From a virus, in the IMG/VR virus record IMGVR_UViG_3300030419_003351, positions 1 through 52,864 of that record: a DNA stretch of 52,864 nt. One strand, given 5' to 3'. The notes under the pieces are model-generated. The model saw only the letters and a program-made list of their open reading frames with translations. It had not been told where the DNA came from and searched no databases. The position numbers were made by a program, and so were the translations under genes. Positions 7,134 to 17,470 of this stretch are shown piece after piece; within the stretch, counting starts at the first letter, position 1, and every line of letters starts with the position of its first letter.

Positions 7134-7140
7134 ATCTCAA

Positions 7141-7320
7141 AATGGCTGACTCCACTCAATGGCACGACTCTTAGAGTATAAGGTACGACAATGATACCAA
7201 AGTCGCTGACTGTCTCTCATGGCCCGACTCTTTATAGATAAGATACGACATACTTACCAAAGTCGCTGACTACCAGCATTGGGGCGAGTCGGGAGACATT
7301 AGATATGACAATATATAGTA
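7141..7320. repeat. Three tandem 60-bp repeats
   Basis: Three units of exactly 60 bases (7141-7200, 7201-7260, 7261-7320) share GCTGACT near position 5, a CGACTC or CGAGTC near 25 and RGATAYGACA near 41. Units two and three begin AGTCGCTGACT, and in unit two AGTCG can pair with CGACT to form a hairpin. They follow the stop of the plus-strand island. More diverged copies lie at 7634 and 12979. They could be iterons, processed RNA elements or protein-binding arrays; sequence alone does not decide. Confidence 0.8.
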
Positions 7321-7334
7321 ATTATATATGTACA

Positions 7335-7368
7335 TAAAGAAAGCCCATACATCAGAGGATGCAGGGCT
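7335..7368 (-). terminator. Intrinsic terminator of 7380-7544
   Basis: On the minus strand AGCCC pairs with GGGCT (7368-7364 with 7346-7342), extended by TGCATC with GATGTA around a CTCT loop, then TTCTTT. It sits 12 bases past the stop. Confidence 0.75.
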
Positions 7369-7379
7369 ATTCGAGGCCA

Positions 7380-7544
7380 TTAGCCTTTAACAGTAGTTTC
7401 TATCCAGTAGTGATCTTCGCCAAGAGTATTAACTAAATCTTCAGCATCAGATTGTTCGTAATAAATCTCTACTAGATCATCATTCTTATTTAATACTACA
7501 TAAACATAATTGTGTGATGGTGGTGGTTGGTTTTCATATACCAT
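7380..7544 (-). CDS. Small hypothetical protein (54 aa)
   Basis: An AGGAG site six bases before the ATG at 7544 opens MVYENQPPPSHNYVYVVLNK..., followed by an acidic helix (YYEQSDAEDLVNTL) and a WIETTVKG end. The gene has its own promoter (7579-7607) and its own terminator, a complete one-gene unit. The strand-helix-strand pattern suggests a small folded domain; no known family. Confidence 0.65.
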   Translation of the reverse strand: MVYENQPPPSHNYVYVVLNKNDDLVEIYYEQSDAEDLVNTLGEDHYWIETTVKG

Positions 7545-7578
7545 ATCATACTCCTAAGTGTGGTTGGTTTATATGTTA

Positions 7579-7607
7579 ATTATACTATATACATCGTCAT
7601 TTGTCAA
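7579..7607 (-). promoter_or_regulatory. Early sigma-70 promoter with CGAT spacer
   Basis: TTGACA (7607-7602), 17-base spacer with ACGATGTA, TATAAT (7584-7579). Single-gene unit 7544-7380. Confidence 0.9.
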
Positions 7608-7633
7608 CCCTTAACTTTAATAAAAATCCAAAA

Positions 7634-7685
7634 TTGGCTGACTGGTGCTTATGGGGTGCGACTCTTTATTATTTAGGCACGACAA
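7634..7685. repeat. Dispersed copy of the 60-bp repeat
   Basis: TGGCTGACTGG..TTATGGGG.GCGACTCTTTA..GGCACGACAA matches units of the array at 7141 over about 50 bases; two further GGCTGACTCTA fragments follow to about 7717. The rest of the 7545-8010 gap holds the GC-rich element and a terminator; no gene is visible in it. Confidence 0.7.
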
Positions 7686-7819
7686 ATTGGCTGACTCTAG
7701 GAAGTGGCTGACTCTAAGGCAATACCTAACTGCTCTGAAAAGAAGGGAAGAGACAAGAACAGGGAGGATGACGGAGGGGGAAGTTGCGGCGGTAAAAGCG
7801 AAAAAATATTGGCACGTTG

Positions 7820-7872
7820 TTTGCGGGGGACAATTTTGTAGGCCGCCCGCATTTGCGGGTTTGTCAACCCCT
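7820..7872. repeat. GC-rich intergenic element, copy A
   Basis: TTTGCGGGGGACAATTTTG followed by GGCCGCCCGCATTTGCGGG and TTTGTCAACCCC. The minus strand can form CCCGC-AAAT-GCGGG. It belongs to the eight-member family described in the findings. Confidence 0.65.
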
Positions 7873-7954
7873 ATTCCCTAAAAACTTCAGAAAAAATACC
7901 AATAAAAAGAGCGACAATAAAAAGTAGAAGAAAAAACATATTTCACCCCATAAA

Positions 7955-7991
7955 TAAAAAACCCCACCGGTAGACAAGTCCACCGGCAGGG
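7955..7991 (-). terminator. Intrinsic terminator of the DUF932 gene
   Basis: Minus strand CCCTGCCGGT and ACCGGTGGGG pair around GGACTTGTCT and run into TTTTTT, 20 bases past the stop at 8011. Confidence 0.8.
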
Positions 7992-8010
7992 ATCTCGAAA
8001 GGGGTACTGA

Positions 8011-8937
8011 TTAAGCGGCCAATTCCAGTGCGAGCCTTTCAGCGTCCCGCACTTCTTTGGAATTAGAAGCCCGAAGGATTCTATCAAAGTCACCCTTGAA
8101 ACCTTCTTTGGCTTGTGCATCATGCTGGACAAATCCCTGAATGGCGTTATACGCTTCCCAAGCGGAAACAGTTTCAACCATAGCAGGACGGCCAGTGATG
8201 TTACGCTCTTTATTGAGACGCTTCCAGATTGCCTCAGTACGATTTTGGTGAGTCGTCACCGCCCGTACTGCTTGACCAGTTGCGGCTAACGCAAGCTGTT
8301 CTGGACTTGGTTGACCGTAAATCTGATTAAGAAAATCAGTCATGCGAACCTCAGTGGATTCGAGACGGTCAATAACGTCGGTCAGAGTTGACCAGCTATT
8401 TTTGAGAGTCTCAAACGTAGCGATTAATTCGTCCATGTTGGAACGCAAGCCGGAAGTGTGACGAATGGAAACGGTTGTACCGTTGACCATACGCATCATA
8501 GCAAGATTGCTACACGCATCACGGAAATAGCCCATAGTAGCGGTAAACGCTTTACCATCATAACCGGCGTTAATCATCACGCGAGGCCATACGTTATCCG
8601 TATCACGATCCTTATAGATCGACCGTCGCTGTTCAGCGGTCGGTTGAATAGAAACGTAATGCCCATTTCGGAAGTGAGTATTGCAAGCGATCTCACCGTC
8701 AAACGCTTCGCCAGCGGCATCGACTAACGCACAAACGTCATCAGTCGTATGGGGAACGTAGCGAGGTGAAACGGATTTCACGCCCTTGAGATAACCCGTA
8801 TCAGAACGGAACAAACCGTACTGATCGGTTGGCAAAACCTCCGTACCCATGACGGCGGATAGCGGATATTTTTCAACGTCGAAATTGAAGTCAGAACGAA
8901 CGGAAGCGGAAACGTCTTGTGCTTGAATGTTACTCAT
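8011..8937 (-). CDS. DUF932-family phage/plasmid-like protein
   Basis: 308 residues resembling the DUF932 / phage-plasmid-like family: an N-terminal FDVEKYPLSAVMG-type start, a middle QPTAEQR...YKDRDTDNVWPRVMINAGYDG, the conserved CSNLAMMR (about 140) and a RHTSG turn (about 160), then a helical C-terminus. The family occurs in many phages and plasmids and has no established activity. I start at the ATG at 8937, because GAAAGGG precedes it by about six bases; a start five codons earlier would put the ribosome site inside the gene. Single-gene unit with its own promoter and terminator. Confidence 0.8.
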   Translation of the reverse strand: MSNIQAQDVSASVRSDFNFDVEKYPLSAVMGTEVLPTDQYGLFRSDTGYLKGVKSVSPRYVPHTTDDVCALVDAAGEAFDGEIACNTHFRNGHYVSIQPTAEQRRSIYKDRDTDNVWPRVMINAGYDGKAFTATMGYFRDACSNLAMMRMVNGTTVSIRHTSGLRSNMDELIATFETLKNSWSTLTDVIDRLESTEVRMTDFLNQIYGQPSPEQLALAATGQAVRAVTTHQNRTEAIWKRLNKERNITGRPAMVETVSAWEAYNAIQGFVQHDAQAKEGFKGDFDRILRASNSKEVRDAERLALELAA

Positions 8938-8979
8938 AGTAAACCCTTTCAAAATTGTGAAACTAAATCTTACACTCTC

Positions 8980-9007
8980 ATTATACTATATATCGGCTAG
9001 ATGTCAA
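8980..9007 (-). promoter_or_regulatory. Early sigma-70 promoter with CGATA spacer
   Basis: TTGACA (9007-9002), 16-base spacer with CCGATATATAG, TATAAT (8985-8980). It drives the DUF932 gene. Confidence 0.92.
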
Positions 9008-9088
9008 GCGATTCTTTAATCTTTTTTGGACTTTTTTTATTTTGGACTTTTTTGGCCGATTGTAGATTTTTCCTATTGACAAACCGGA

Positions 9089-9110
9089 TTTTGCGGGCAG
9101 CCCCCAAAAT
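9089..9110. repeat. GC-rich intergenic element, copy B
   Basis: TTTTGCGGGCAGCCCCCAAA, a copy of the GC-rich family between the structured element at 9125-9250 and the DUF932 promoter. Confidence 0.6.
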
Positions 9111-9124
9111 ATTTCCAAGGTCAA

Positions 9125-9250
9125 CCGGCGACCCTCATGTTGGCGATGAGAGATCATTTATCTCCTGTTATCCCGCCGCCCTCTCTCACCTTACAGTTTA
9201 CCGCTGTTAGCGTAAGCGACGGGCAGGCAACCAACATAAAGGTCAACCGG
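9125..9250 (-). ncRNA. Structured RNA element with 15-bp closing stem
   Basis: CCGG (9125-9128), GACC (9130-9133) and ATGTTGG (9137-9143) pair with CCGG (9247-9250), GGTC (9241-9244) and CCAACAT (9231-9237). Inside, CCTG/CAGG and CCCG/CGGG make a second stem (9164-9175 with 9220-9227), and GAGAT-ATCTC (9150-9164) a hairpin. No gene fits. It lies in the 3' region of the 9976 to 9269 unit, so I assign it to the minus strand. The GCCGGTTGACC arms recur in the terminator at 10218-10250. Confidence 0.5.
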
Positions 9251-9268
9251 CATCTCTTGAAAGGAATA

Positions 9269-9499
9269 CTAGTCCTCGTGAGGCATCGTGCAATATACCT
9301 CGTAAGGTGTAGCGGCATAGGTCATTTGTGAATGGTCATCTTCCCACCATCCTACAAAGCCCTTTACCCCACCGGCAGAAGCAACTTCAAAACAGGCGAT
9401 GCGGTCGTTCGTTTGCTCCGCTAATTTACAGGTGCCTTCTTGACGAATCATTTTTTTTACAAAGCTATTAAATCTAGTAATACTTCCTACTTCGTCCAT
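9269..9499 (-). CDS. Hypothetical protein (76 aa)
   Basis: An AGGGG site precedes the ATG. The product (MDEVGSITRFNSFVKKM...) has a GVKGFVGWWEDDHSQM segment near the middle and an acidic C-terminus, with no recognised motif. It is nine bases downstream of the preceding stop, so it is the second gene of the unit from 10003-10030. Confidence 0.6.
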   Translation of the reverse strand: MDEVGSITRFNSFVKKMIRQEGTCKLAEQTNDRIACFEVASAGGVKGFVGWWEDDHSQMTYAATPYEVYCTMPHED

Positions 9500-9508
9500 G
9501 ATAATCCC

Positions 9509-9976
9509 CTAATGAAAAAATGGTGGTTTGTGACTGAAGGCCAACACCCTATTGTCAAGGATTGACAAGTCGGCATAGTCAGCGTTCTCTATTGGGCTTG
9601 CGTCATACTGCTTGATGAAGGTGTCGCAGGTGTATGGGTTGTAGTAGACTTGCTCCCATCGTGTTTCACCGTTTTCGATTTGCTGATCAGTGAGATGACC
9701 GTCAACCTTTTGGTCGGTCGTACGAGTATCAACCACATAGCCCTCAACAAACGCATGTACGTTCTTCTTCTGTTCATCCCTGACTCTCCTTTGTCCAGCC
9801 TTGGACACAATGAATTGACAACTTCTTAATGTAACATTTTCTGCATGACAGCGAACGATGCCGCCTTGCTTTACACTGTAGCAATCCCGATGCAGATTAC
9901 GATATACTCGCACCTTCTTTGTGGTGTCGATATGCTCTGCAATCTCAAAGCTCTTTTGTGTGCGTGGTTTCTTCAT
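9509..9976 (-). CDS. Hypothetical protein (155 aa)
   Basis: The N-terminal half (VRVYRNLHRDCYSVKQGGIVRCHAENVTLR...VSKAGQRRVRDEQKKNVHAFVEG) contains short beta-like repeats and basic residues. This pattern is shared by a family of hypothetical phage proteins of the type VxVYRNLHxxxxSVxxxGxV; I know no function. GAAAGG precedes the ATG and the promoter lies 27 bases above. First gene of its unit. Confidence 0.65.
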   Translation of the reverse strand: MKKPRTQKSFEIAEHIDTTKKVRVYRNLHRDCYSVKQGGIVRCHAENVTLRSCQFIVSKAGQRRVRDEQKKNVHAFVEGYVVDTRTTDQKVDGHLTDQQIENGETRWEQVYYNPYTCDTFIKQYDASPIENADYADLSILDNRVLAFSHKPPFFH

Positions 9977-10002
9977 AACTTTTCCTTTCGTGTTATACTA
10001 CC

Positions 10003-10030
10003 ATTATAATATATATATCGTCATTGTCAA
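10003..10030 (-). promoter_or_regulatory. Early sigma-70 promoter with CGATA spacer
   Basis: TTGACA (10030-10025), 16-base spacer with ACGATATATATA, TATAAT (10008-10003). It drives 9976 to 9269. Confidence 0.92.
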
Positions 10031-10091
10031 ATAAAATCTTCACATAAAACCATGTTTTTTGCCGGATTAATCTAAAAAGTTTTGGCACGAC

Positions 10092-10116
10092 TTTTGCACC
10101 CCGCCCCCAAAATTTT
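10092..10116. repeat. GC-rich intergenic element, copy C
   Basis: TTTTGCACCCCGCCCCCAAAA, a diverged copy of the GC-rich family, preceded by GGCACGAC as in copy A's neighbourhood. Confidence 0.5.
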
Positions 10117-10217
10117 ATAAAACGAACAATACAATCTCAATACACAAAACCAAAACCGGCACGCAAATAAGATTCCATAATAATATTTTATATTCTAAAG
10201 ACATAACCAACACCTAT

Positions 10218-10250
10218 AAAAAACCGGCGACCCCCGGAGGGGTCAACCGG
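10218..10250 (-). terminator. Intrinsic terminator of 10269-10547
   Basis: Minus strand CCGG-TT-GACCCC-TCCG-GGGGTC-G-CCGG then TTTTTT: a near-perfect stem of ten pairs followed by a U run, 18 bases past the stop. Confidence 0.88.
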
Positions 10251-10268
10251 CACACACAACACGAATGA

Positions 10269-10547
10269 CTAAGCCGGTAGGAACGGCGAAACCAGAGAAC
10301 CCACAAACGGGATTTTGATTCCCCAATTCTGACGCTCTTTGTAGAACGCCTTCATACCGTCACGGGTTTGCACCGTGTCAAGGTCTCTCGACCGTTTGAA
10401 CTCGGGGTCATGCTTGCGGTATGCTCCCGTGATGGTTTCCCAACTGAGCGGGTGCTTGTTGGTATTGCGTCGGGATTGTAAAACACCCCAACGAAACTTT
10501 GCACCATCAACCGGCTGTTTGTAACTAAATAAAACTAAACTTTTCAT
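10269..10547 (-). CDS. Basic hypothetical protein (92 aa)
   Basis: The protein starts MKSLVLFSYKQPVDGAKFRW and is basic, with a WETITGAYRKHDPEFKRSRDLDTVQTRDGM core and a hydrophobic end (IPFVGSLVSPFLPA). GAGCG lies upstream of the ATG. It follows the gp88-like gene by 73 bases with no new promoter visible and ends at a strong terminator, so the two form one unit. I do not recognise the family. Confidence 0.6.
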   Translation of the reverse strand: MKSLVLFSYKQPVDGAKFRWGVLQSRRNTNKHPLSWETITGAYRKHDPEFKRSRDLDTVQTRDGMKAFYKERQNWGIKIPFVGSLVSPFLPA

Positions 10548-10620
10548 CTTTGATTCGCTCCTGCAATTAAAAAACTTAAACCACTAAATAACGCTGCTAT
10601 TAGAAATAGATATAAATATA

Positions 10621-11403
10621 TCAACTCATCTTCACCTTTCTGCTATAGGAATGTTTAACCTTATCTCGTTTGAGAACCTTTAACGCTTCCGCTGCTCTTG
10701 AATCTTTTGGCTGTGTGCCATGAAGCAATAAAGCAAAATCGTTGTTTCGTAATGATGGACGGGCTGCGTGACTATCATCATGGTCGATGTCTAACCCTAA
10801 CGCTACCGCTTCCGCTTCGCTATATACTACCTTGCTTGAACGTAAATCAAACTCTTCGATTAAGTGGTCATGTGTTCCACCGTATGAAGCAGTTAAAACA
10901 AAGTTATGCAAAACAGGAAACTCGTTGATTGCAAGCCAGAACCTTAGCGATTTGGTATAGGCGTAGAATAGCGTATTAGGATTGAGTAGGGCGATTGTAT
11001 ACCACGCTTCCATGTACTGCTGATTGAAGAAATCACCCGCAACATGAATCCGAACAATACCGGCATTGGCGGGTAATGATTGATTGATAACGTCAACCAT
11101 CTCACCGCATGATAGTTTACGCAACACGTCAAAATTATGCTTGCGTAAATTGTAAACGCCGTTATACTGTACTTCCTGAGAAGCTGAGAAGCAACGGAAC
11201 TCTGTATCTTTTCCGTCTTTGATTTTACGTTTGCCGTTCGGTTGGACTACTGCCTTTGATAGGCATTGTTTGGCAAAGGGGCAAGAGAAGCCACTGAGAA
11301 GGTCAAGAGAATAAACTTTTTTCTTGTCGGTCAAATATTCCGATAGTTCGGAAACTTGTTTTAGTGCTTCGATTTTAGCATTGGCATTTGAGAATTTTAG
11401 CAT
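10621..11403 (-). CDS. gp88-family phage protein
   Basis: 260 residues with the marks of the phage gene-product-88 family: an N-terminal SLDLLSGFSCPFAKQC (Cys41, Cys47), then EFRCFSAS (Cys71), a basic QYNGVYNLRKHN, and a conserved RIHVAGDFFNQQYMEAW...NTLFYAYTKS block at about 117-152. The clustered cysteines could bind a metal or an iron-sulfur cluster; the family's function is not established to my knowledge. The start is an ATG at 11403 behind GGAGCGAATCACA. The promoter at 11439-11466 lies close upstream. The length is usual for the family. Confidence 0.75.
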   Translation of the reverse strand: MLKFSNANAKIEALKQVSELSEYLTDKKKVYSLDLLSGFSCPFAKQCLSKAVVQPNGKRKIKDGKDTEFRCFSASQEVQYNGVYNLRKHNFDVLRKLSCGEMVDVINQSLPANAGIVRIHVAGDFFNQQYMEAWYTIALLNPNTLFYAYTKSLRFWLAINEFPVLHNFVLTASYGGTHDHLIEEFDLRSSKVVYSEAEAVALGLDIDHDDSHAARPSLRNNDFALLLHGTQPKDSRAAEALKVLKRDKVKHSYSRKVKMS

Positions 11404-11438
11404 TGTGATTCGCTCCGTGTGTTGTGTGATACTTCTCT

Positions 11439-11466
11439 ATTATACTATATATTATCGGAATGTCAA
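11439..11466 (-). promoter_or_regulatory. Early sigma-70 promoter with CGATA spacer
   Basis: TTGACA (11466-11461), 16-base spacer with CCGATAATATA, TATAAT (11444-11439). It drives the gp88-like gene and 10547-10269. Confidence 0.92.
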
Positions 11467-11500
11467 GAGGTAATCTTTAACTTTTTTCCGTTTTTTTGTA

Positions 11501-11593
11501 TGGCGGACGGGGTGGGGAATCGAACCCCACACATGTAGGCACTGAGTCGGATTAGGTCTGAGCAACCCCGCAACTTTCTCGCCCATCGCGTCC
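11501..11593 (-). ncRNA. tRNA-like RNA with canonical T-arm and encoded CCA
   Basis: The 3' end shows a T-arm (GTGGGG-TTCGATT-CCCCAC, 7-base loop), an acceptor 3' strand CCCGTCC, G and an encoded CCA; GGACGCG at 11593-11587 pairs with the acceptor strand with one mismatch. Between them GCGA-GAAAG-TTGC and GGGTT-(10 bases)-AATCC could be D- and anticodon-like arms. The D-loop lacks GG, no 7-base anticodon loop with U33 forms, and T stem plus acceptor is 13 bp, so I cannot assign an amino acid. It has its own promoter at 11661-11688 and no gene lies between. It may be a degenerate tRNA, an unusual tRNA or a tRNA mimic. Confidence 0.55.
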
Positions 11594-11660
11594 GATAGCC
11601 TTTACTCGTTGTCAATCCTGTCAGTGTCTCATCCTACAAGACCACTTCCCGAACACTTCC

Positions 11661-11688
11661 ATTATATATTATATCGGCTATTTGTCAA
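11661..11688 (-). promoter_or_regulatory. Early sigma-70 promoter of the tRNA-like RNA
   Basis: TTGACA (11688-11683), 16-base spacer with CCGATATAA, TATAAT (11666-11661). Predicted start near 11654, about 60 bases before the tRNA-like 5' end; no reading frame lies between. Confidence 0.88.
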
Positions 11689-11728
11689 GGGGAACTTCAG
11701 TATTTTCTCAAAAAAAAGCAAAAAAAAA

Positions 11729-11766
11729 TTTTGCGGCCCGCCCACAAAACCTGCTTTGTCAACCCC
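11729..11766. repeat. GC-rich intergenic element, copy D
   Basis: TTTTGCGGCCCGCCCACAAAA followed by TTTGTCAACCCC; the GC-rich core and the distal GTCAACCCC are both kept. It lies between the terminator of 11845-12048 and the tRNA-like promoter. Confidence 0.65.
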
Positions 11767-11784
11767 AAAACCTTAAAAAAATCG

Positions 11785-11813
11785 TGAAAAAGGGAAAGGG
11801 GCATTGCTGCCCC
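11785..11813 (-). terminator. Intrinsic terminator of the 12422 to 11845 unit
   Basis: Minus strand GGGGCA-GCAA-TGCCCC (11813-11798) followed by TTTCCCTTTTT: a GNRA-capped hairpin with a U-rich tail. Confidence 0.75.
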
Positions 11814-11844
11814 GATCCCCCACAACACGAAAGGTTAGCTTTGT

Positions 11845-12048
11845 TTAGAGTGAAGCCACACACTTTGCAATGGACAATGAGCGAATTTGCCCATTATTTT
11901 CCTGAACGGTGATACCCCGTCCACTCGGCCCTGTAAAGCTGGCGAGCTTTTTGCCCTCAACTTTTCGCAGGACATTCTTTTTTCCTCCTACAGGATAGAG
12001 GAAAGAAACTTTGCGTTCGTTACGCTTACTATAGAGATCGTTCAACAT
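11845..12048 (-). CDS. Small basic hypothetical protein (67 aa)
   Basis: A basic protein (MLNDLYSKRNERKVSFLYPVGGKKNVLRKVEGK...) with alternating beta-like segments and a GPSGRGITVQENNG turn, suggesting a small barrel. AAAGG lies seven bases before the ATG, and the start overlaps the upstream stop. Third gene of a three-gene unit ending in the terminator at 11785-11813. It resembles its neighbour (12029-12193) in being a short beta-rich protein about internal turns, but similarity is weak. Confidence 0.6.
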   Translation of the reverse strand: MLNDLYSKRNERKVSFLYPVGGKKNVLRKVEGKKLASFTGPSGRGITVQENNGQIRSLSIAKCVASL

Positions 12049-12193
12049 TGATAAACCTTTCTACTTGTGAAAAAGAAAACTGTTTGACACCTTCCGCAGT
12101 GTCGATCAAAACATGGTCGCTCTTTATGGCAACAACCGTTCCAGCGGGAAATTTAGTACCGATTCCCACAATCGGCTTTTGACTACTACTCAT
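12029..12193 (-). CDS. Small beta-rich hypothetical protein (54 aa)
   Basis: I start at the ATG at 12193 (MSSSQKPIVGIGTKF...), which overlaps the previous stop as ATGAGTAG; an earlier in-frame start lies deep inside the upstream gene. The pattern KFPAGTVVAIKSDHVLIDTAEGVKQFSFSQVERF alternates hydrophobic residues as in a small SH3-like barrel. Operon from 12543-12570. No family assigned. Confidence 0.6.
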   Translation of the reverse strand: MSSSQKPIVGIGTKFPAGTVVAIKSDHVLIDTAEGVKQFSFSQVERFINVERSL

Positions 12194-12422
12194 CTTCTGA
12201 TGACTCCTCTTGTGCAAGTTTATGAGCTTCCTCGACTCGTGAAGCCGCAAGTTCTGTCAGCTTATCGCCCAACTTCTTGTGAAGCTGTTTCATGACTTCC
12301 TCTGACATCGTGAAGACAACCTTGTCTTCTCCTGCGTAAAGCTCTACTTCGTTGTCGGACTTCCAAGTGGAAACATAGCTGTGTGAGATCTGTCCAAAAT
12401 CTACTGTTTGTGAAATCTTCAT
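12186..12422 (-). CDS. Hypothetical protein (78 aa)
   Basis: The N-terminal half has beta-like strands (VDFGQISHSYVSTWKSDNEVELYAGEDKVVFTM) and the C-terminal half is a charged helix ending EESSEDE. GGAGAAG precedes the ATG. First gene below the promoter at 12543-12570, with about 110 bases of untranslated leader. Function unknown. Confidence 0.65.
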   Translation of the reverse strand: MKISQTVDFGQISHSYVSTWKSDNEVELYAGEDKVVFTMSEEVMKQLHKKLGDKLTELAASRVEEAHKLAQEESSEDE

Positions 12423-12542
12423 AAGACTTCTCCTTTCAAAAATGTTGCGGATGCAGTGGCTCTTAACCCTAACTCACTTGCTTGATATTATTCGCCTCAA
12501 GACGGGCGGGTGAGTTCCAGTTCCGTGTCGTGTTACACTACC

Positions 12543-12570
12543 ATTATACTATAATTATCGTCAATGTCAA
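12543..12570 (-). promoter_or_regulatory. Early sigma-70 promoter with CGATA spacer
   Basis: TTGACA (12570-12565), 16-base spacer with ACGATAATTA, TATAAT (12548-12543). The -35 contains the TGA stop of the gene at 12567-12734. Confidence 0.92.
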
Positions 12571-12734
12571 GCGGTTTCTTTAGCAATTTCCAGAATAATT
12601 TTAGATTCTTTTGCAAGTTCTGAATCTTTGTCGATATACAGAGAACCTGCTACTCCCTGTTGAGCAGCACCTACGCTTGCCGCATAACGAATTTTACTTT
12701 TAGTTTCTTTGTCTTTGAGGAATGTTAAACTCAT
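12567..12734 (-). CDS. Small hypothetical protein (55 aa)
   Basis: AAAGG precedes the ATG at 12734 by about ten bases. The protein (MSLTFLKDKETKSKIRYAASVGAAQQGVAGS...) reads as two helices linked by a glycine-rich turn, with a SLYIDKDSEL segment. Its stop codon TGA is embedded in the TTGACA -35 of the next promoter, so gene end and promoter cannot be separated. Second gene of the unit from 12913-12940. Confidence 0.65.
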   Translation of the reverse strand: MSLTFLKDKETKSKIRYAASVGAAQQGVAGSLYIDKDSELAKESKIILEIAKETA

Positions 12735-12753
12735 AACTTTCTACCTTTCAATG

Positions 12754-12906
12754 TTAAACATCTGCTTGCCACGCACGACGTTGTGCTTGGCGTGTACGGA
12801 TTCGCTTAGGCCGGTTGTCATGCACTTGATGCGTGTTGGCCTGATGGCCGACTGACGGTTTCCCGACCTTAATCTTGAGCGTTATTGTTTTCTTGTTGTT
12901 TCTCAT
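12754..12906 (-). CDS. Small very basic protein (50 aa), apparently leaderless
   Basis: 50 residues (MRNNKKTITLKIKVGK...) ending in an arginine-rich helix (NRPKRIRTRQAQRRAWQ), which would suit binding to nucleic acid. The A of the ATG (12906) lies exactly seven bases below the -10 hexamer, where transcription is expected to start, and no ribosome site is present, so the mRNA is probably leaderless. The next gene has a normal ribosome site. Confidence 0.6.
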   Translation of the reverse strand: MRNNKKTITLKIKVGKPSVGHQANTHQVHDNRPKRIRTRQAQRRAWQADV

Positions 12907-12912
12907 ACTCTT

Positions 12913-12940
12913 ATTATACTATATATATCGTCGTTGTCAA
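12913..12940 (-). promoter_or_regulatory. Early sigma-70 promoter with CGATA spacer
   Basis: TTGACA (12940-12935), 16-base spacer with ACGATATATA, TATAAT (12918-12913). The predicted start coincides with the ATG of 12754-12906. Confidence 0.92.
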
Positions 12941-12964
12941 GTCTTTTCTTTAATCTTTTTTGAA

Positions 12965-13266
12965 TTTTTTGCTGACTTTGGCTGACTGGTCTATATCTGG
13001 CGGTTCTCGGGAGAGATAGGATAAGACAAGCATCACGATGGCAGGCCATTCCATCTGCACCGTAGTTTGCTGCGTCCCTTTTTAAGTTCACTAGGAACCG
13101 GAGTTGACTTACGCCTCGATGCACCCCTAAATCGTCTTACCGATCCTGTCCTTACGTAATGGCTACAAAGGCCTTAAAGGGGTTGTGATGTTGTCTCTGT
13201 GTAAGACGCCTCTTTCGAGGAACCAATTCCAGCGGCGTAGTTCCAACTGGGTTGTAGCTGACTTAC
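12965..13266 (-). ncRNA. Promoter-driven structured noncoding RNA
   Basis: A consensus promoter at 13273-13300 points into about 300 bases without a convincing gene; a 73-codon frame inside runs across the next promoter and lacks a ribosome site. The 5' part has CCAG/CTGG interleaved with GGAAC/GTTCC (about 13244-13217), an H-type pseudoknot pattern, then a CCTC-GAAA-GAGG hairpin. Further on are GTTC-GAAC and GATGG-CCATC hairpins. The 3' end carries a copy of the 60-bp repeat element. The 3' boundary is my estimate. No known RNA family recognised. Confidence 0.55.
12979..13029. repeat. Dispersed copy of the 60-bp repeat element
   Basis: GGCTGACTGG at 12980 and AGATAGGATAAGACAA near 13014 match the two conserved ends of the array units at 7141-7320, with about the same spacing. 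It overlaps the 3' part of the noncoding RNA. Confidence 0.6.
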
Positions 13267-13272
13267 TCCTCC

Positions 13273-13300
13273 ATTATAATATATATCGGCCAAATGTCAA
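13273..13300 (-). promoter_or_regulatory. Early sigma-70 promoter of the structured RNA
   Basis: TTGACA (13300-13295), 16-base spacer with CCGATATATAT, TATAAT (13278-13273). Predicted start 13266. Confidence 0.92.
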
Positions 13301-13377
13301 GGGTATCTTTACAAAATTCTCTAAAAAAAAGAAAAATTCTTTGCGTCGTAAGTCCTTTAATAGCAAGGGTTTACAGC

Positions 13378-13400
13378 AAATTGCGGGCAGCCCCCATTTT
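13378..13400. repeat. GC-rich intergenic element, copy E
   Basis: AAATTGCGGGCAGCCCCCATTTT, close to copy B, just past the stop of 13422-13580. Confidence 0.6.
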
Positions 13401-13421
13401 TTGACTGGCTACCGATAGGAG

Positions 13422-13580
13422 CTAATTACGTTCACGGCGAACCAAACCCAACCGGCGGATAAGACGAACCATAAAACTGATTTTAGTCTGTCGTTCATTT
13501 TCCAATCTCCTTTTTTCAATATTTTCTAATCGTTGATAGTAACGTGATAATTCTACTGCGTGTGCTTTTCTCATTCTCAT
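13422..13580 (-). CDS. Small basic helical protein (52 aa)
   Basis: I start at the ATG at 13580, which overlaps the stop of the membrane microprotein as ATGA; an in-frame ATG 17 codons earlier would run through that gene. The product (MRMRKAHAVELSRYY...) is strongly basic and helical, ending LIRRLGLVRRERN. Fourth gene of the unit from 14336-14364. It could bind nucleic acid or the membrane surface; unproven. Confidence 0.55.
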   Translation of the reverse strand: MRMRKAHAVELSRYYQRLENIEKRRLENERQTKISFMVRLIRRLGLVRRERN

Positions 13581-13642
13581 ATTAACCCCGACACTATACA
13601 ACCGGCAACGAAAGCCAACAAACAAAACCATAACGCATTCAT
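13577..13642 (-). CDS. Single-span membrane microprotein (21 aa)
   Basis: MNALWFCLLAFVAGCIVSGLI is one hydrophobic helix with a small-residue face. An AAAGAG site precedes the ATG, the upstream stop is 11 bases away and the stop overlaps the next start, so it fits the operon exactly. It is too short for any family call; similar one-span microproteins occur at 15944 and 14544. Confidence 0.5.
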   Translation of the reverse strand: MNALWFCLLAFVAGCIVSGLI

Positions 13643-13652
13643 CTGCTCTTTA

Positions 13653-13940
13653 TTATATTTCATTTTTCCATTCCTTATAATCTTCAACTGTCATAAAGGT
13701 CATCTGTCCGGCGTGATTCAACAACCACGGAAAACCAAATTCATCTTCAACCCATAGGTCTAACAATTCTAAATTTCCACTCGCTGCGGTTTCTTCCATA
13801 ACCTCACTAGGCACGGCAACCTTCATAGAGCTAATCGGCCCAGAACTTTTACCTTCCCATTCTTCTTGAGGTTTTAGAATTCTTGCAAGCGTAACCATCA
13901 TCACGCCCATACCATAAACAGGACTATAATCATCGTGCAT
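13653..13940 (-). CDS. Hypothetical protein (95 aa)
   Basis: I use the ATG at 13940 (MHDDYSPVYGMGVMM...), one base after the upstream stop, with GGAGGAAG about seven bases before it inside that gene. A central SGPISSMKVAVPSEVMEE and the C-terminal DEFGFPWLLNHAGQMTFMTVEDYKEW suggest a small alpha/beta domain. No family recognised. Coupled to 13942-14307. Confidence 0.6.
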   Translation of the reverse strand: MHDDYSPVYGMGVMMVTLARILKPQEEWEGKSSGPISSMKVAVPSEVMEETAASGNLELLDLWVEDEFGFPWLLNHAGQMTFMTVEDYKEWKNEI

Positions 13941-13941
13941 C

Positions 13942-14307
13942 TTATTCTTCCTCCAAGTCATCAGCGTCAATCATACCACTATTAACCATACCGCCAACGA
14001 AAGCCATCATATTTTTATGAAGCTGGATTTCATCCTTCTCGTTTTCGCTATAGTCTAATTCACAATCAATATCACGACCATTAACCTGTTTGCGTAATCG
14101 TTCAATATTACGAGCCTTTAACGCTTTAAGTTTTTGGTGTGCGGTTTCCGTATCCGCTTCATCTTCGCACATCTCATTTAATCGTGCAAGCGTGCGACCA
14201 CCACGAACATCATCATGGAACTTTTTGGGAAGCCACTCATTAGGCACGACAATCATTTCCTGAGTAGCGACTTCCAACTCTTTCAACATTTCTTCAACGC
14301 TTTTCAT
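13942..14307 (-). CDS. Acidic helical hypothetical protein (121 aa)
   Basis: I start at MKSVEEML (14307), behind AAAGGAAATTGATT; a longer frame would begin inside the promoter. The protein is helical with an AHQKLKALKARNIERLRKQ stretch that could form a coiled coil and a very acidic C-terminus (DADDLEEE). First gene of a four-gene unit. Function unknown. Confidence 0.65.
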   Translation of the reverse strand: MKSVEEMLKELEVATQEMIVVPNEWLPKKFHDDVRGGRTLARLNEMCEDEADTETAHQKLKALKARNIERLRKQVNGRDIDCELDYSENEKDEIQLHKNMMAFVGGMVNSGMIDADDLEEE

Positions 14308-14335
14308 AATCAATTTCCTTTGTGTTATGCTTCCC

Positions 14336-14364
14336 ATTATAATATATATCGGCACATTTGTCAA
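14336..14364 (-). promoter_or_regulatory. Early sigma-70 promoter with CGATA spacer
   Basis: TTGACA (14364-14359), 17-base spacer with CCGATATATAT, TATAAT (14341-14336). The -35 includes the stop codon of 14361-14471. Confidence 0.92.
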
Positions 14365-14471
14365 GAGGTCTTAAACTCTTTTTCAATTTTTTCCAATCTT
14401 TTTTCTATGTCGTTCCATATGAACAAACCACCGAGGAAACCACCCATGAAGCAAATGCAAACTGTAACCAT
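14361..14471 (-). CDS. Membrane microprotein (36 or 41 aa)
   Basis: A hydrophobic, glycine-containing span (VTVCICFMGGFLGGLFIW) is followed by a charged helix (NDIEKRLEKIEKEFKTS): a one-span protein with a cytoplasmic coiled tail, holin- or spanin-like in outline only. An ATG five codons earlier (14486) lies only about ten bases below the transcription start and has no ribosome site; the ATG at 14471 has AAAGG seven bases upstream, so I prefer it. The TGA stop lies inside the next -35. Confidence 0.55.
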   Translation of the reverse strand: MVTVCICFMGGFLGGLFIWNDIEKRLEKIEKEFKTS

Positions 14472-14502
14472 AATTAAACCTTTCATTAATTGTTATACTA
14501 AG

Positions 14503-14531
14503 AGTATACCATAATCATCGGCATTTGTCAA
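14503..14531 (-). promoter_or_regulatory. Early sigma-70 promoter with CGAT spacer
   Basis: TTGACA (14531-14526), 17-base spacer with CCGATGATTA, TATACT (14508-14503). Single-gene unit. Confidence 0.88.
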
Positions 14532-14543
14532 GGGGTATCTTAA

Positions 14544-14651
14544 CTAATTTTCATAAATTTTTAGTATTTTTGAAACAGCCCAGCCGACTGGCAAAAGCAA
14601 CGCCGGAACGACCACGAACATCATAAACTCATCATTTTCAAATAAACTCAT
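14544..14651 (-). CDS. Membrane microprotein (35 aa)
   Basis: MSLFENDEFMMFVVVPALLL... has an acidic first nine residues and then one membrane span to about residue 27, ending in a short basic tail. The ATG overlaps the upstream stop (ATGA) and AAAGGTGAAGA precedes it, so translation is coupled. Second gene of the unit from the unusual promoter at 14820-14858. Confidence 0.55.
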   Translation of the reverse strand: MSLFENDEFMMFVVVPALLLPVGWAVSKILKIYEN

Positions 14652-14797
14652 TTCTTCACCTTTGCAAATTTAGATTGTGCTAGTTTTTTGTGTGTCTGTT
14701 TGAGAGTACCCTTTGCAAGGCATCCCGTGAATATATCCGCGTGCCGCTTGAGACTCGCGTTGTGTTTGGCTATCGCTATTTTTTTATTGTTTAGCAT
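14648..14797 (-). CDS. Small very basic protein (49 aa)
   Basis: AAAGGATAAGAC precedes the ATG. The protein (MLNNKKIAIAKHNASLKRHADIFTGCLAKG...) has about 14 lysines and arginines and a C-terminal helix rich in Lys, consistent with nucleic-acid or ribosome binding. It is one of the two units driven by the alternative promoter class. Confidence 0.6.
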   Translation of the reverse strand: MLNNKKIAIAKHNASLKRHADIFTGCLAKGTLKQTHKKLAQSKFAKVKK

Positions 14798-14819
14798 GTC
14801 TTATCCTTTCCTGCTATAT

Positions 14820-14858
14820 ATATATTATCGCACATGGGTGTGACACGTTAGGTCACTG
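14820..14858 (-). promoter_or_regulatory. Alternative promoter with 19-base dyad box, copy 1
   Basis: Minus strand CAGTGACCTAACGTGTCAC (14858-14840) contains inverted repeat GTGAC/GTCAC; after nine bases comes CGATAATATATATA. There is no TTGACA. The same box and spacing occur at 16813-16856, in front of another gene, so this is a second promoter class or an operator-bearing promoter. Confidence 0.65.
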
Positions 14859-14890
14859 CCGACTGATTTTTTCAAAAAAAAGGGAAAAAC

Positions 14891-14935
14891 TTTTTGCGGG
14901 CCGCCCGCAATTTTGTCAAGCCCCCTAGAAGGGGG
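14891..14935 (-). terminator. GC-rich element, copy F, terminator-like
   Basis: Minus strand has CCCCCT-TCT-AGGGGG directly after the stop of 14939-15127, then CTTGACAAAATTGC, then the perfect palindrome TTGCGGGC-G-GCCCGCAA followed by AAAGTTTTT. Two stacked hairpins with a U-rich end argue for termination; it is also a member of the repeat family. Confidence 0.65.
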
Positions 14936-14938
14936 AGG

Positions 14939-15127
14939 TTAGCAGAAAGCACACTCGTCTAATGTCGGCGTGTACTCTCCGCCTTGCTTGCCGCACTTGG
15001 GACAGATGTCGCTTTCATCTAGGACGATGAACAAATCATCCTCTAGCTCCATCTCCTCCTCGCACCACATCCAGTACTGCAAGGAACCGTCATCTTCGGG
15101 TTGAAAATTTTCGTCGTGATCGTTCAT
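14939..15127 (-). CDS. Small zinc-ribbon protein (62 aa)
   Basis: The acidic first 45 residues (NDHDENFQPEDDG...EEEMELEDDLF) lead into CPKCGKQGGEYTPTLDECAFC, two CxxC knuckles about 13 residues apart: a classic zinc ribbon. I start at the ATG at 15127; one four codons earlier (15139) is possible. It overlaps the end of 15090-15218 in another frame, showing dense packing. Zinc ribbons of this size often contact nucleic acid or RNA polymerase. Confidence 0.65.
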   Translation of the reverse strand: MNDHDENFQPEDDGSLQYWMWCEEEMELEDDLFIVLDESDICPKCGKQGGEYTPTLDECAFC

Positions 15128-15218
15128 GAATCCACTCATCAAACAAGCCAAGTAAAACGGGAAAGGTGACGGCGGCAACCGTCGCCCATTCCCAAAAGGT
15201 AATCATTTCGCTGCTCAT
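15090..15218 (-). CDS. Small membrane protein (42 aa)
   Basis: MSSEMITFWEWATVAAVTFPV... gives one membrane span (about residues 7-24) followed by a basic tail (HERSRRKFSTRR), an N-out/C-in topology by the positive-inside rule. The ATG overlaps the upstream stop as TGATGAG with a GAGGGA upstream. It overlaps the zinc-ribbon gene by 38 bases in a different frame. Confidence 0.6.
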   Translation of the reverse strand: MSSEMITFWEWATVAAVTFPVLLGLFDEWIHERSRRKFSTRR

Positions 15219-15502
15219 CAGTCCCAATCCCTCAAAGCGTAGTTTTCCCATTCGGCGGCGTACATATCCACCGGATCGTAGTCCGTGTAATCGTCGTCCC
15301 ACGGCTCCTGTGGGTACAGACTCGGATCTTCATCCATCTCCGCATAGAAGTCACGATGCGGATCGAAGTCCGAAGGCTCAAGCTCAGGCTCCGCAGCCTC
15401 TTGCTCCTCAAGCCAAGCGGAGTACTCCTCCCAATCGGCCTGTGTAGGCTCGTAGGAAGCAAGTTCGTCGGACTGGATAGAAGTGTCAAATTTAGAGAAC
15501 AT
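15218..15502 (-). CDS. Highly acidic protein (94 aa)
   Basis: MFSKFDTSIQSDELASYEPTQADWEEYSAW... has roughly a third of its residues Asp or Glu, with DYTDYDPVDMY repeats and no basic cluster. Such a charge suggests a DNA mimic or an inhibitor of a host DNA- or RNA-binding enzyme, but that is only inference from composition. I start at the ATG at 15502 (GAAAGG upstream); an earlier in-frame start lies inside the promoter. It shares the KGF-x-MFS start context with 16164-16445. Confidence 0.65.
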   Translation of the reverse strand: MFSKFDTSIQSDELASYEPTQADWEEYSAWLEEQEAAEPELEPSDFDPHRDFYAEMDEDPSLYPQEPWDDDYTDYDPVDMYAAEWENYALRDWD

Positions 15503-15542
15503 AGAAAAACCTTTCAAAAAGTGATGTGTTTTGTATAACCCC

Positions 15543-15570
15543 ATTATACATAATATCGGCAGAATGTCAA
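15543..15570 (-). promoter_or_regulatory. Early sigma-70 promoter with CGATA spacer
   Basis: TTGACA (15570-15565), 16-base spacer with CCGATATTATG, TATAAT (15548-15543). It drives 15502 to 14939. Confidence 0.92.
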
Positions 15571-15640
15571 GGGGTTCTTTAGAAAAAAATCAAAGTTTTT
15601 GGTAATTGAGTGATTTCGACAGAGCTTACCAAACTCCACA

Positions 15641-15653
15641 CCCCCGAAGGGGG
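15641..15653 (-). terminator. Hairpin after 15667-15882
   Basis: Minus strand CCCCC-TTC-GGGGG, 13 bases past the stop, but without a good U run afterwards (TGTGGAGTTTGG), so termination is uncertain. Confidence 0.4.
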
Positions 15654-15666
15654 ACGGTGCGATCAA

Positions 15667-15882
15667 CTATTCCTCTTCAGGAAACATAGCGTCGAAGCAA
15701 GTATCGCAGGTTTCGGAGATTAACATCTCTCGATCCTCTGCACTCAGGTACGGCATAGCCGCCTGAATTAACTCGCCCTCTTGCCAGCGTTGCCAATCGT
15801 TAGCATTGAAGCTAATCTTTTGACACTCGCCGCACAAGCGACACTGAGCGTTGACCGTCACGTTCAATCGTGTTGCGATCAT
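15667..15882 (-). CDS. Small zinc-binding-like protein (71 aa), apparently leaderless
   Basis: MIATRLNVTVNAQCRLCGECQKISF... contains CRLCGEC near residue 14-20 and CDTCF near 60-64, a split four- or five-cysteine metal site around a helical middle (NDWQRWQEGELIQ). The A of the ATG (15882) is exactly at the expected transcription start of the promoter at 15889-15917, so the message is probably leaderless. A longer frame would begin upstream of the promoter. Confidence 0.6.
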   Translation of the reverse strand: MIATRLNVTVNAQCRLCGECQKISFNANDWQRWQEGELIQAAMPYLSAEDREMLISETCDTCFDAMFPEEE

Positions 15883-15888
15883 GTCTAC

Positions 15889-15917
15889 ATTATACCACAA
15901 AAAGTTAATCTTGTCAA
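15889..15917 (-). promoter_or_regulatory. Sigma-70 promoter without CGATA spacer
   Basis: TTGACA (15917-15912), 17-base spacer AGATTAACTTTTTGTGG, TATAAT (15894-15889). It lacks the spacer motif and serves a leaderless gene. Confidence 0.82.
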
Positions 15918-15943
15918 GGGTAAAACAAAAGAATTTCAAAAAA

Positions 15944-16012
15944 TTATTGTAAAACTTCTGCACCCAAAAAACCAACAAAACAAGCCATCAACAGTAAAAC
16001 AAAAAACGTCAT
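15944..16012 (-). CDS. Single-span membrane microprotein (22 aa)
   Basis: MTFFVLLLMACFVGFLGAEV... is one membrane helix. It has an ideal ribosome site (AAAGGAGG) eight bases before the ATG and its own promoter at 16026-16054, so despite 22 codons it looks genuinely expressed. Nothing follows it before the next promoter. Confidence 0.6.
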   Translation of the reverse strand: MTFFVLLLMACFVGFLGAEVLQ

Positions 16013-16025
16013 ATCAACTTCCTCC

Positions 16026-16054
16026 TTTATATAATATATATCGGCACAAGTCAA
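16026..16054 (-). promoter_or_regulatory. Early sigma-70 promoter with CGATA spacer
   Basis: TTGACT (16054-16049), 17-base spacer with CCGATATATAT, TATAAA (16031-16026). It drives the 22-residue microprotein. Confidence 0.8.
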
Positions 16055-16090
16055 TAGCGATCTTGAGAAAAAATCAAAAAAACAGCAAAA

Positions 16091-16140
16091 AAATTTTTGC
16101 GGGCGGGGCACAATTTTGTCAAGCCCCCTATAAGAGGGCC
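16091..16140 (-). terminator. GC-rich element, copy G, terminator-like
   Basis: Minus strand GCCCTCT-TAT-AGGGGGC sits after the stop of 16164-16445 and is followed by TTGACAAAATTGTGCCCCGCCCGC and AAAAATTTTTTT. GGGGC can alternatively pair with the later GCCCC, giving two competing stems. Confidence 0.6.
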
Positions 16141-16163
16141 TGAGCTATGTCGGAATTCTTAGG

Positions 16164-16445
16164 CTACGACGGCAGGCATCCGTCAAGGATACCGCCGTGA
16201 GCGTCAAGCTCTGCCTGTACTACTTCAACCGGCACCCAACCATAAACGGTTTCGGTGTAGTCGTGATCGCCAAAGCATTCTGCATAGCTGCGTAGCTCTG
16301 CTGTCTTGGGCGTAGTAGATGGAAAGCCACACTCTACCGTAACAGGTACGCCATCGGTGTTACGCTGTGAGTATGCACCTTCGTGAGCCTGTACGCTAAT
16401 GTTGAAGCCATCGGTGCAAGTGATTCTAGGATTGTGAGAGAACAT
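16164..16445 (-). CDS. Hypothetical protein (93 aa)
   Basis: I start at the ATG at 16445 (MFSHNPRITCTDGFNISVQA...), behind GAAAGG; the longer frame upstream overlaps the preceding gene. The chain shows beta-rich segments and a YAECFGDHDYTETVYGWVP block, then ELDAHGGILDGCLPS. The HGGI(L) ending and VPVEVVQAELDAHGGI recall a domain repeated in phage hypothetical proteins; function unknown. Second gene below the alternative promoter at 16813-16857. Confidence 0.6.
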   Translation of the reverse strand: MFSHNPRITCTDGFNISVQAHEGAYSQRNTDGVPVTVECGFPSTTPKTAELRSYAECFGDHDYTETVYGWVPVEVVQAELDAHGGILDGCLPS

Positions 16446-16542
16446 ATTAAAACCTTTCAAGTTAAAAGAAAAACCGGAATCTTGAATAGCCTTAACCGGC
16501 GGGCTATGCTTGCGACTAGGGCAAGGCTTGCGGGTTAAACCC

Positions 16543-16782
16543 TTAACCACCTGAATCAACTCGGTAGGTGATACCGCACTCGTTACAAGTGTGTTGATTG
16601 TAACACGTACCAAGATTGGTACGAGTCATATTGTAATCTCTTACAATTTCCGGCGTACGAGTAATGACACCGTTCACAGTACTGCTCATGATAGTCTCAC
16701 GTTCAGTACCACACTCGGCCAAGTGCCTAGTGTATTCTTTTGGCTGTTCTTTCCAGCCATTCATAGTTCCTAAATCAATCAT
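16543..16782 (-). CDS. Hypothetical protein with Cys/His cluster (79 aa)
   Basis: The ATG at 16782 follows GAAAGGAATTGTT. The C-terminus CYNQHTCNECGITYRVDSGG has three cysteines and a histidine in a zinc-binding arrangement; the N-terminal part (WKEQPKEYTRHLAECGTERE) is charged and helical. A ribbon on a short helix suggests a nucleic-acid or protein adaptor. First gene of the second alternative-promoter unit. Confidence 0.6.
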   Translation of the reverse strand: MIDLGTMNGWKEQPKEYTRHLAECGTERETIMSSTVNGVITRTPEIVRDYNMTRTNLGTCYNQHTCNECGITYRVDSGG

Positions 16783-16812
16783 AACAATTCCTTTCTTTTG
16801 TGTTGTGTTTGT

Positions 16813-16857
16813 CATATTATTATTATCGTCTATGGTCGTGACACGTTAGGTCACTGG
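16813..16857 (-). promoter_or_regulatory. Alternative promoter with 19-base dyad box, copy 2
   Basis: CAGTGACCTAACGTGTCAC (16856-16838) then nine bases and CGATAATAATAATAT. The box contains the TAA stop of 16846-17067, so in this copy it doubles as coding sequence. Confidence 0.65.
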
Positions 16858-17067
16858 AACGTACTTTCCTACAATTTTTTTCCACTTTTTCATAACGTAG
16901 TCATATTGGCCGGTTGTCTCTGGATTGCTGATGCAGTTGCCAGCTTCGTTGACACTACTGCAAATGATGTATTTGCCGTAGGTGTTATGACGCACCAAGT
17001 ACCGCATACCGGTTGGGGTGTCTTTGATCATTCGGATCTCGTAGGGTTTCATTCCGCGTAGTAACAT
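16846..17067 (-). CDS. Small basic hypothetical protein (73 aa)
   Basis: AAAGGAAATAAA precedes the ATG. The product (MLLRGMKPYEIRMIKDTPTGMRYLVRHNTYGKYI...) has beta-like strands, two cysteines (IICSSVNEAGNC) and a basic C-terminus (KKWKKIVGKYVPVT). The last codons and stop form part of the dyad box shared with 14840-14858; the other copy may therefore descend from a duplicated gene end. Function unknown. Confidence 0.6.
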   Translation of the reverse strand: MLLRGMKPYEIRMIKDTPTGMRYLVRHNTYGKYIICSSVNEAGNCISNPETTGQYDYVMKKWKKIVGKYVPVT

Positions 17068-17092
17068 TTTATTTCCTTTGTGTTATATTTTA

Positions 17093-17121
17093 AGTATACC
17101 ATATAAATCGGCTTTTGTCAA
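17093..17121 (-). promoter_or_regulatory. Early sigma-70 promoter with CGAT spacer
   Basis: TTGACA (17121-17116), 17-base spacer with CCGATTTATA, TATACT (17098-17093). It drives 17067-16846. Confidence 0.88.
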
Positions 17122-17130
17122 GCCCAATCT

Positions 17131-17307
17131 TTATTTATTTATGGTATTTTGTAAGGTTTTTTTTCTGCCCCACAATCGTTGCAGGTCATTCATTAGACAG
17201 TTTTTATTCCACTGTCCTAATTCCTTATTGTAACGAATCAAAGTTTTTTCGATTCGTCGGTCAATTTTGAACAGTTCTAGTTTAGCGTTTTGTTTTGTAA
17301 GAGTCAT
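17131..17307 (-). CDS. Small helical protein, three-member paralogous family, copy 1 (58 aa)
   Basis: I start at the ATG at 17307 (MTLTKQNAKLELFKIDRRIEK...). The pattern AKLELFK-x-(D/N)R-x-IEK...ELGQWNKN...LQRLW-x-(R/D)KKTL is shared closely with 18429-18599 and more loosely with 17918-18115. All are predicted as a two-helix hairpin. Each has its own promoter-led unit, consistent with tandem duplication of promoter plus gene. Partner and role unknown; a coiled-coil inhibitor or adaptor would fit. Confidence 0.7.
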   Translation of the reverse strand: MTLTKQNAKLELFKIDRRIEKTLIRYNKELGQWNKNCLMNDLQRLWGRKKTLQNTINK

Positions 17308-17332
17308 TTTATTTCCTTTCGTTGTGCTTTTC

Positions 17333-17361
17333 ATTATACTATACTTATCGGCTTTTGTCAA
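17333..17361 (-). promoter_or_regulatory. Early sigma-70 promoter with CGATA spacer
   Basis: TTGACA (17361-17356), 17-base spacer with CCGATAAGTA, TATAAT (17338-17333). It drives paralogue copy 1. Confidence 0.9.
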
Positions 17362-17396
17362 GGGTATTCTTTAATTATTCTTAAAGTTTTTTTAAT

Positions 17397-17435
17397 TTAT
17401 TTTTTATTGCCGATTGTTATTTCCTTATTAATTAT
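17397..17435 (-). pseudogene. Vestigial gene behind an orphan promoter
   Basis: Below the promoter at 17442-17470 the transcript carries AAGGAAATAACAATCGGC, almost the leader AAGGAAATAAAATG of the neighbouring genes, but with no ATG; the frame then ends after a few codons (AATAAAAAATAA). It looks like the remains of a deleted small gene. A short functional RNA cannot be excluded. Confidence 0.4.
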
Positions 17436-17441
17436 ATCGAC

Positions 17442-17470
17442 ATTATACCATAAAACCTTTAACCTGTCAA
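17442..17470 (-). promoter_or_regulatory. Orphan sigma-70 promoter without CGATA
   Basis: TTGACA (17470-17465), 17-base spacer GGTTAAAGGTTTTATGG, TATAAT (17447-17442). No intact gene follows. Confidence 0.75.

Follow-up and report, generated by a model that had tools for sequence, protein, structure and literature searches.

Small stable RNAs of undefined function, RNAs C and D, are encoded among the tRNAs of phage T4, and 5'-terminal stem-loops, such as that of the ompA leader, shield mRNAs against 5'-end-dependent decay. GOLLD and ROOL, which occur in phages and prophages near tRNA islands, are ornate RNAs of several hundred nucleotides that form multimeric cages, and GOLLD can harbour tRNAs in its linker (PMC12286853). 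The manA and wcaG motifs are structured RNAs of marine phages that were recognized from covariation and mostly reside in the 5'UTRs of metabolic genes (PMC2864571). A tRNA gene has been reported within the intervening sequence of a permuted tmRNA (PMC11915505) and this segment is therefore known to host other RNA genes. The element described in the following, composed of a 5' module (D1) and a larger module (D2), is probably a free-standing phage RNA, judging from its sequence and that of its relatives; a description of the D2 fold was not found in the literature searched.

The locus and its early promoter

The window, the whole stretch of DNA that was analysed, is a virus record of 52,864 bases. 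It represents part of the genome of a marine phage; the terminase shares 89% identity with that of other environmental contigs, and the kinship to named phages is distant. Its early region is read leftward: 17 perfect TTGACA-TATAAT promoters (0.06 expected in the window) are found at 800-17470, and 17/17 lie on the minus strand. The promoter at 13300-13273 (-) reads into some 300 nt without a gene (13266-12965), and was kept in every homolog that bears D1 as well as in eight loci without D1, in which the closing stem P1 of D2 begins 37-44 nt past the start of the consensus -35 box. The first-pass annotation had claimed a consensus promoter that fires into a stretch with no plausible gene, and both parts of that claim stand: the stretch is crossed by spurious ORFs only, and a conserved reading frame is excluded because the homologs differ by indels of 1-3 nt. 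No intrinsic terminator was found after the window copy of the RNA. An RNA read from the plus strand was considered and rejected (folding no better than shuffles; promoters all on the minus strand). The features of the locus are as follows.

13273-13300, minus strand: sigma-70 promoter of the RNA gene, TTGACA-16-TATAAT (12/12 consensus matches)
13201-13266, minus strand: D1, 66-nt 5' module (R1 model, 7 loci)
13025-13195, minus strand: D2, structured RNA with closing stem P1 (R2/R3 models, about 20 loci)
13195-13185 with 13036-13025, minus strand: P1, closing stem of D2 (R2/R3 models)
13170-13174, minus strand: 5' strand of the D2 pseudoknot, AGGCC (pairs with 13047-13043; covaries G-C/A-U/C-G)
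13129-13146, minus strand: P4 hairpin with the invariant loop GUAAGA (two-sided changes in 3/6 pairs)
13056-13123, minus strand: optional peripheral arm of D2, 68 nt, with a GGUUC/GAAC hairpin (covaries UU/AA to CC/GG)
13043-13047, minus strand: 3' strand of the D2 pseudoknot, GGCCU, in the P5 loop (covariation with 13174-13170)
13037-13055, minus strand: P5 hairpin GAUGG/CCAUC with the pseudoknot strand in its loop (two-sided changes in 5/5 pairs)
12965-13024, minus strand: variable 3' flank that runs into the next promoter (homolog comparison)

The 60-bp repeat that had been assigned to the 3' part of the RNA was not found: the repeats are the promoter regions themselves (12902-12970), and within the RNA only short matches of 11-18 nt to the rest of the window were recovered. 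A real tandem 60-nt repeat (72% identical) lies at 7159-7278, with GTCAGCGACTTTGG on the minus strand, and is perhaps the one that was meant.

Three further observations concern the early region at large. A basic peptide of 50 aa (MRNNKKTITLKIKVGKPSVGHQANTHQVHDNRPKR...) is encoded at 12906-12754 (-), begins 7 nt past the -10 box (promoter at 12940-12913) and is conserved in L094, L095 and L096; its ORF has the appearance of an early gene that escaped annotation and has almost no leader. The stretches 14816-14858 and 16814-16856, 81% identical and carrying a GTGACACGTTAGGTCAC hairpin, are possibly another repeated leader element. Finally, the 25-nt G+C-rich motif TTTTGCGGGCNGCCCCCAAAA occurs at 9089-9113, 10092-10116, 11729-11753, 13379-13403 and 14892-14916, in early intergenic DNA close to TTGACA-like boxes without TATAAT.

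Folds of the two modules

Compared to shuffles, the folding energy of the whole region was not above chance (z = -0.41), and the values for D1 (z = -0.57) and D2 (z = -1.55) were ordinary; folding energy is thus uninformative here and the structural support comes from the comparison of homologs. These were gathered by pattern scans of viral contigs. Model R2 was built from close relatives and was then used, together with short patterns, to reach divergent members (L111-L120, L125) that exposed the core. The pattern matches L087, L092, L093, L097, L118, L121, L123, L124, L148, L150, L151, L154 and L155 were judged to be chance.

D2 measures 171 nt in the window and about 95-175 nt across the family, around a core of ~95 nt with a fixed order: P1 closes the element, P2 (CCC/GGG) encloses P3 and P4, P5 lies outside P2, and the consensus ARGCC directly after P2 pairs as a pseudoknot with GGCYU in the P5 loop. 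In this pseudoknot two of the most distant members have C-G in place of the G-C or A-U of the others. The sequence of P1 has changed wholly between members, reading GAGUAG/CUACUC in L113, CAGAGUAG/CUACUUUG in L115 and AAUAUUGG/CCAAUAUU in L149. The invariant bases are spread over junctions, pseudoknot and hairpin loops and do not form one open stretch.

The pairing was quantified on three alignments. With 15 cores (A7), 95% of the cells were paired and 11/30 pairs showed two-sided changes (0/500 shuffles), and with 16 cores (A10; four still more distant members added, near-duplicates left out) 94% of the cells were paired with two-sided compensatory changes in 19/30 pairs (0/500 shuffles) and a covariation score of 0.469 (0.142 ± 0.017 shuffled, ≤ 0.125 slid), values that favour pairing in P1 and P5 because in both alignments the arms were excised and a few loop bases trimmed or padded by hand for the register of these two stems. 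Alignment A6, from which only the arms and module M (see below) were taken out and in which the register was not edited, retained two-sided changes in 4/21 pairs, with a score reached in 0/500 shuffles. We consider it practically certain, from this comparison, that the covarying fold is that of a real RNA. A structured RNA with its own promoter had been proposed in the first-pass annotation, with compensatory changes in homologous loci named as the test, and the homologous loci proved rich in them. The proposed likeness to RNAs of other phages is borne out by relatives in other uncultivated phages, and the further hairpins placed after the GAAA hairpin exist and are conserved. What had been missed is that the stretch falls into two modules that are independent of each other, the larger of them held together by a second pseudoknot; this predicted pseudoknot (13174-13170 with 13047-13043) is previously unreported.

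The periphery of D2 is exchangeable. The 68-nt arm is absent from L111, L112, L115, L116, L120 and L125, and a different insertion, module M (GUGAGUCCGGUGAA...CGCGAUUGAAAUAGCGGCA), is present in P3 of L111, L115 and L120 and stands alone within its own stem in L113 (3482-3430, -) and L114; the window copy lacks it. By its distribution M is a predicted exchangeable RNA sub-domain.

D1 contains a terminal helix (GUAAG/CUUAC), a potential H-type pseudoknot (CCAG/CUGG and (GG)AAC/GUU(CC)) and a GNRA hairpin. The interleaved strands noted at first inspection are present (CCAG 13250-13247 with CTGG 13232-13229, GGAAC 13244-13240 with GTTCC 13223-13219) and make such a pseudoknot possible, as is the GAAA tetraloop hairpin (CCTC-GAAA-GAGG, 13220-13209). 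This hairpin shares the last two bases of GTTCC, and hence only AAC/GUU is compatible with it. Among the 7 homologs 18/18 pairs were kept and 2 were changed on both sides, one in the terminal helix (C-G/U-A) and one in the hairpin (U-A/C-G), falling to none when the partner strand was slid; the hairpin loop is GCAA instead of GAAA in L091, still GNRA. Both pseudoknot helices are invariant across all homologs, so that the comparison neither supports nor refutes them, and we regard them as plausible. D1 is absent from L094 and L095, in which the promoter leads straight into D2, and occurs alone in L011, as a 5'UTR located after a promoter and before an ORF of 86 aa; the two modules are therefore separable. 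Taken together, the comparison describes D2 as an RNA with a pseudoknot, in which the core is conserved and the peripheral arms can be exchanged, and D1 as an optional 5' module that can front an mRNA.

Genomic carriers of D2

The genes that follow D2 vary, and most of them are served by a separate promoter 74-91 nt downstream. No promoter was found directly upstream of D2 in L113, L115 and L125, and in L125 the element is followed by a strong terminator. Proximity to tRNA genes was seen in three carriers, with none in the window fragment, where no tRNA was found anywhere. In L149 (R3 E = 1.9e-10) a D2-like element takes up exactly the intervening segment, from CCA end to 5' end, of a permuted tmRNA (RF01849, 75 bits; RF04321, 62 bits); in L153 (R3 E = 1.4e-6) the element ends at 2635 and tRNA-Trp starts at 2636; and in L156, the weakest member (R3 E = 0.006) with P1, P3, P4 and P5 well formed, the element begins directly after the CCA of tRNA-Glu. 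An acceptor piece with CCA and a 5' piece flank the element in L149 only, and the window gave no tmRNA match. Each record holds one real copy of D2, the weak second matches being partial re-matches inside the same element. The carriers differ in their neighbour genes, which implies that the element is not restricted to one phage lineage.

Permuted tmRNAs with long, stem-closed intervening segments were also encountered in L157, L158, L159, L160, L162 and L163 (about 1530-1650), which belong to the roseophages/rhodophages DSS3P8, V10, MAL1, MD18, RcXuper and RcSimone-Hastad; several share GGAAGAGGC-like motifs and the segments are possibly another hidden RNA family. As candidate relatives of D2, the tmRNA intervening segments of seven named phages were rejected (no R3 match).

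In the scan of cellular genomes the only record with the element was a SAR202 MAG (VFHP01000007.1), with two D2 copies (L122, L128; G058 C7 and C13) on two different contigs; the neighbourhood of one copy matches L116 and that of the other L090. A cellular origin was rejected, as both contigs are phage-like and 293 other genomes of the same class gave no match under strict filters; SAR202 as the host is at most a hint.

Possible roles and nearest described systems

Every carrier would yield an RNA whose ends meet in P1; D2 is hence likely to be a discrete, stable RNA, as opposed to a leader in cis. In the proposed course of events the transcript would begin at D1, or directly at D2, and its first bases would be locked in a helix that blocks 5'-end-dependent decay: by inspection of the sequence, the predicted first transcribed bases GUAAG have a possible partner in the CUUAC of D1 and, in phages that lack D1, in the 3' flank of D2. 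Whether D1 serves as such a 5' shield is, in our estimate, close to evenly balanced, with the scale tipped slightly against it. Trimming or processing of the 3' end back to P1 would then leave a stable RNA, and where D2 is part of a tRNA or tmRNA transcript it would be freed, closed by P1, in the ordinary course of tRNA maturation. Early in infection this RNA may act in trans by binding a host (or phage) protein or RNP as a decoy or modulator, the partner most likely coming from the RNA-processing or translation machinery. Conserved junctions and a conserved pseudoknot, with no constant unpaired seed of the antisense type, suggest such a trans-acting binder, an assignment that draws on form and context and that we make tentatively. 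The joint reading, a two-module free-standing RNA gene encoding a trans-acting binder with D1 as its 5' shield, is the one towards which we lean by a small degree.

In the main rival reading D2 would be a new kind of self-cleaving ribozyme, with the task of trimming tRNA, tmRNA or early transcript ends. In favour of it are the compact pseudoknotted fold with invariant junctions, the exchangeable periphery, a P1 that varies freely in sequence and length, and the flush contact of D2 with mature tRNA and tmRNA ends. However, the flush neighbour is on the 5' side in L156, on the 3' side in L153 and on either side in L149, and one cleavage site cannot account for all three; host tRNA-processing enzymes already produce these ends, the copies with their own promoter would have no obvious gain from cleavage, and the known self-cleaving ribozyme models of Rfam do not match the element. 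We hold the ribozyme to be unlikely. A stable antisense or sponge RNA that pairs with host RNAs, or a mimic of a CRISPR repeat, appears quite unlikely as well: the strong early promoter would suit this reading, and module M resembles a CRISPR repeat very weakly (15.4 bits against a cut-off of 35, E = 2.7), but this likeness is sub-threshold, at chance level and confined to a module that the window copy lacks, and conservation in junctions, pseudoknot and loops instead of one open stretch argues against a simple antisense RNA.

Control of the next gene in cis by D2, or by D1 and D2 together, as a leader, riboswitch or attenuator would agree with the position of the element upstream of early genes on the same strand, and D1 is truly a 5'UTR element in L011. 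We nevertheless give this reading little weight: there is no constant downstream gene, most downstream genes are served by separate promoters, D2 is also found flanked by the two parts of a tmRNA or next to tRNAs, and no competition of P1 with a terminator or ribosome site is seen. An RNA antitoxin, another of the initial suggestions, gained no support: the tandem short pseudoknot repeats of a ToxIN-like type III system are lacking, D1 is present in one copy per record, and the adjacent genes encode small early proteins, not the same ones from phage to phage. Conservation of a DNA site for replication or recombination, finally, is hardly credible, since compensatory changes in several helices, a pseudoknot among them, are the signature of a single strand that folds, and the promoters are directed into the element.

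Beyond the preferred joint reading of a trans-acting binder with a 5' shield lies a wider and more speculative one, which we hold to be rather unlikely: D2 would represent a class of phage RNA that is new, widespread and mobile between carriers, with exchangeable sub-domains (D1, the arm, M), and would have a defined activity, either catalytic or in binding the tRNA-processing or translation machinery, with tRNA/tmRNA maturation doubling as its own. Phage RNAs with strong covariation and without a known family are uncommon, and for D2 there are a sharply defined structural model, about 20 members and natural variants that lose each peripheral part. Its placement in the segment of a tmRNA that is discarded during maturation is unusual, and it opens to testing how phages carry and mature non-coding RNAs and what purpose these serve.

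With respect to known families, the search of the window against Rfam 15 (4227 models) gave no match anywhere in it, in answer to the initial suggestion that a known class might be recognized there, and a search at E ≤ 5 with the window stretch, L116, L120, L153, L156 and L113 returned chance-level matches only. BLAST of D1, D1 with D2, and the divergent members against named phages recovered only tRNA, tmRNA or chance pieces. A likeness of the loop GGUAAGA to the specificity domain of RNase P was considered and dropped, as it had no Rfam support.

The nearest described systems can be compared as follows. T4 RNAs C and D are likened to D2 by description, as small stable phage RNAs encoded amid tRNAs. 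GOLLD and ROOL are, like D2, structured RNAs encoded by phages, with undefined function; they often lie near tRNA genes, which holds for D2 in L149, L153 and L156 and not in the window fragment, and they are far larger than D2 and unrelated by model search. The manA and wcaG motifs are likewise marine phage RNAs revealed by covariation, whereas D2 is not bound to one gene and has no match in cmscan. D1 resembles the 5' stem-loop of the ompA type in that it pairs the predicted first transcribed bases and fronts an mRNA in L011; it differs in being a highly conserved, pseudoknot-capable module of 66 nt with a putative protective role, and is a candidate for a transplantable 5'-end protector. As to the permuted tmRNA, the likeness lies in L149, whose D2-like element coincides with the intervening segment; in the window and in most relatives D2 has its own promoter and no tmRNA parts, and in the seven named phages the segment holds other sequence.
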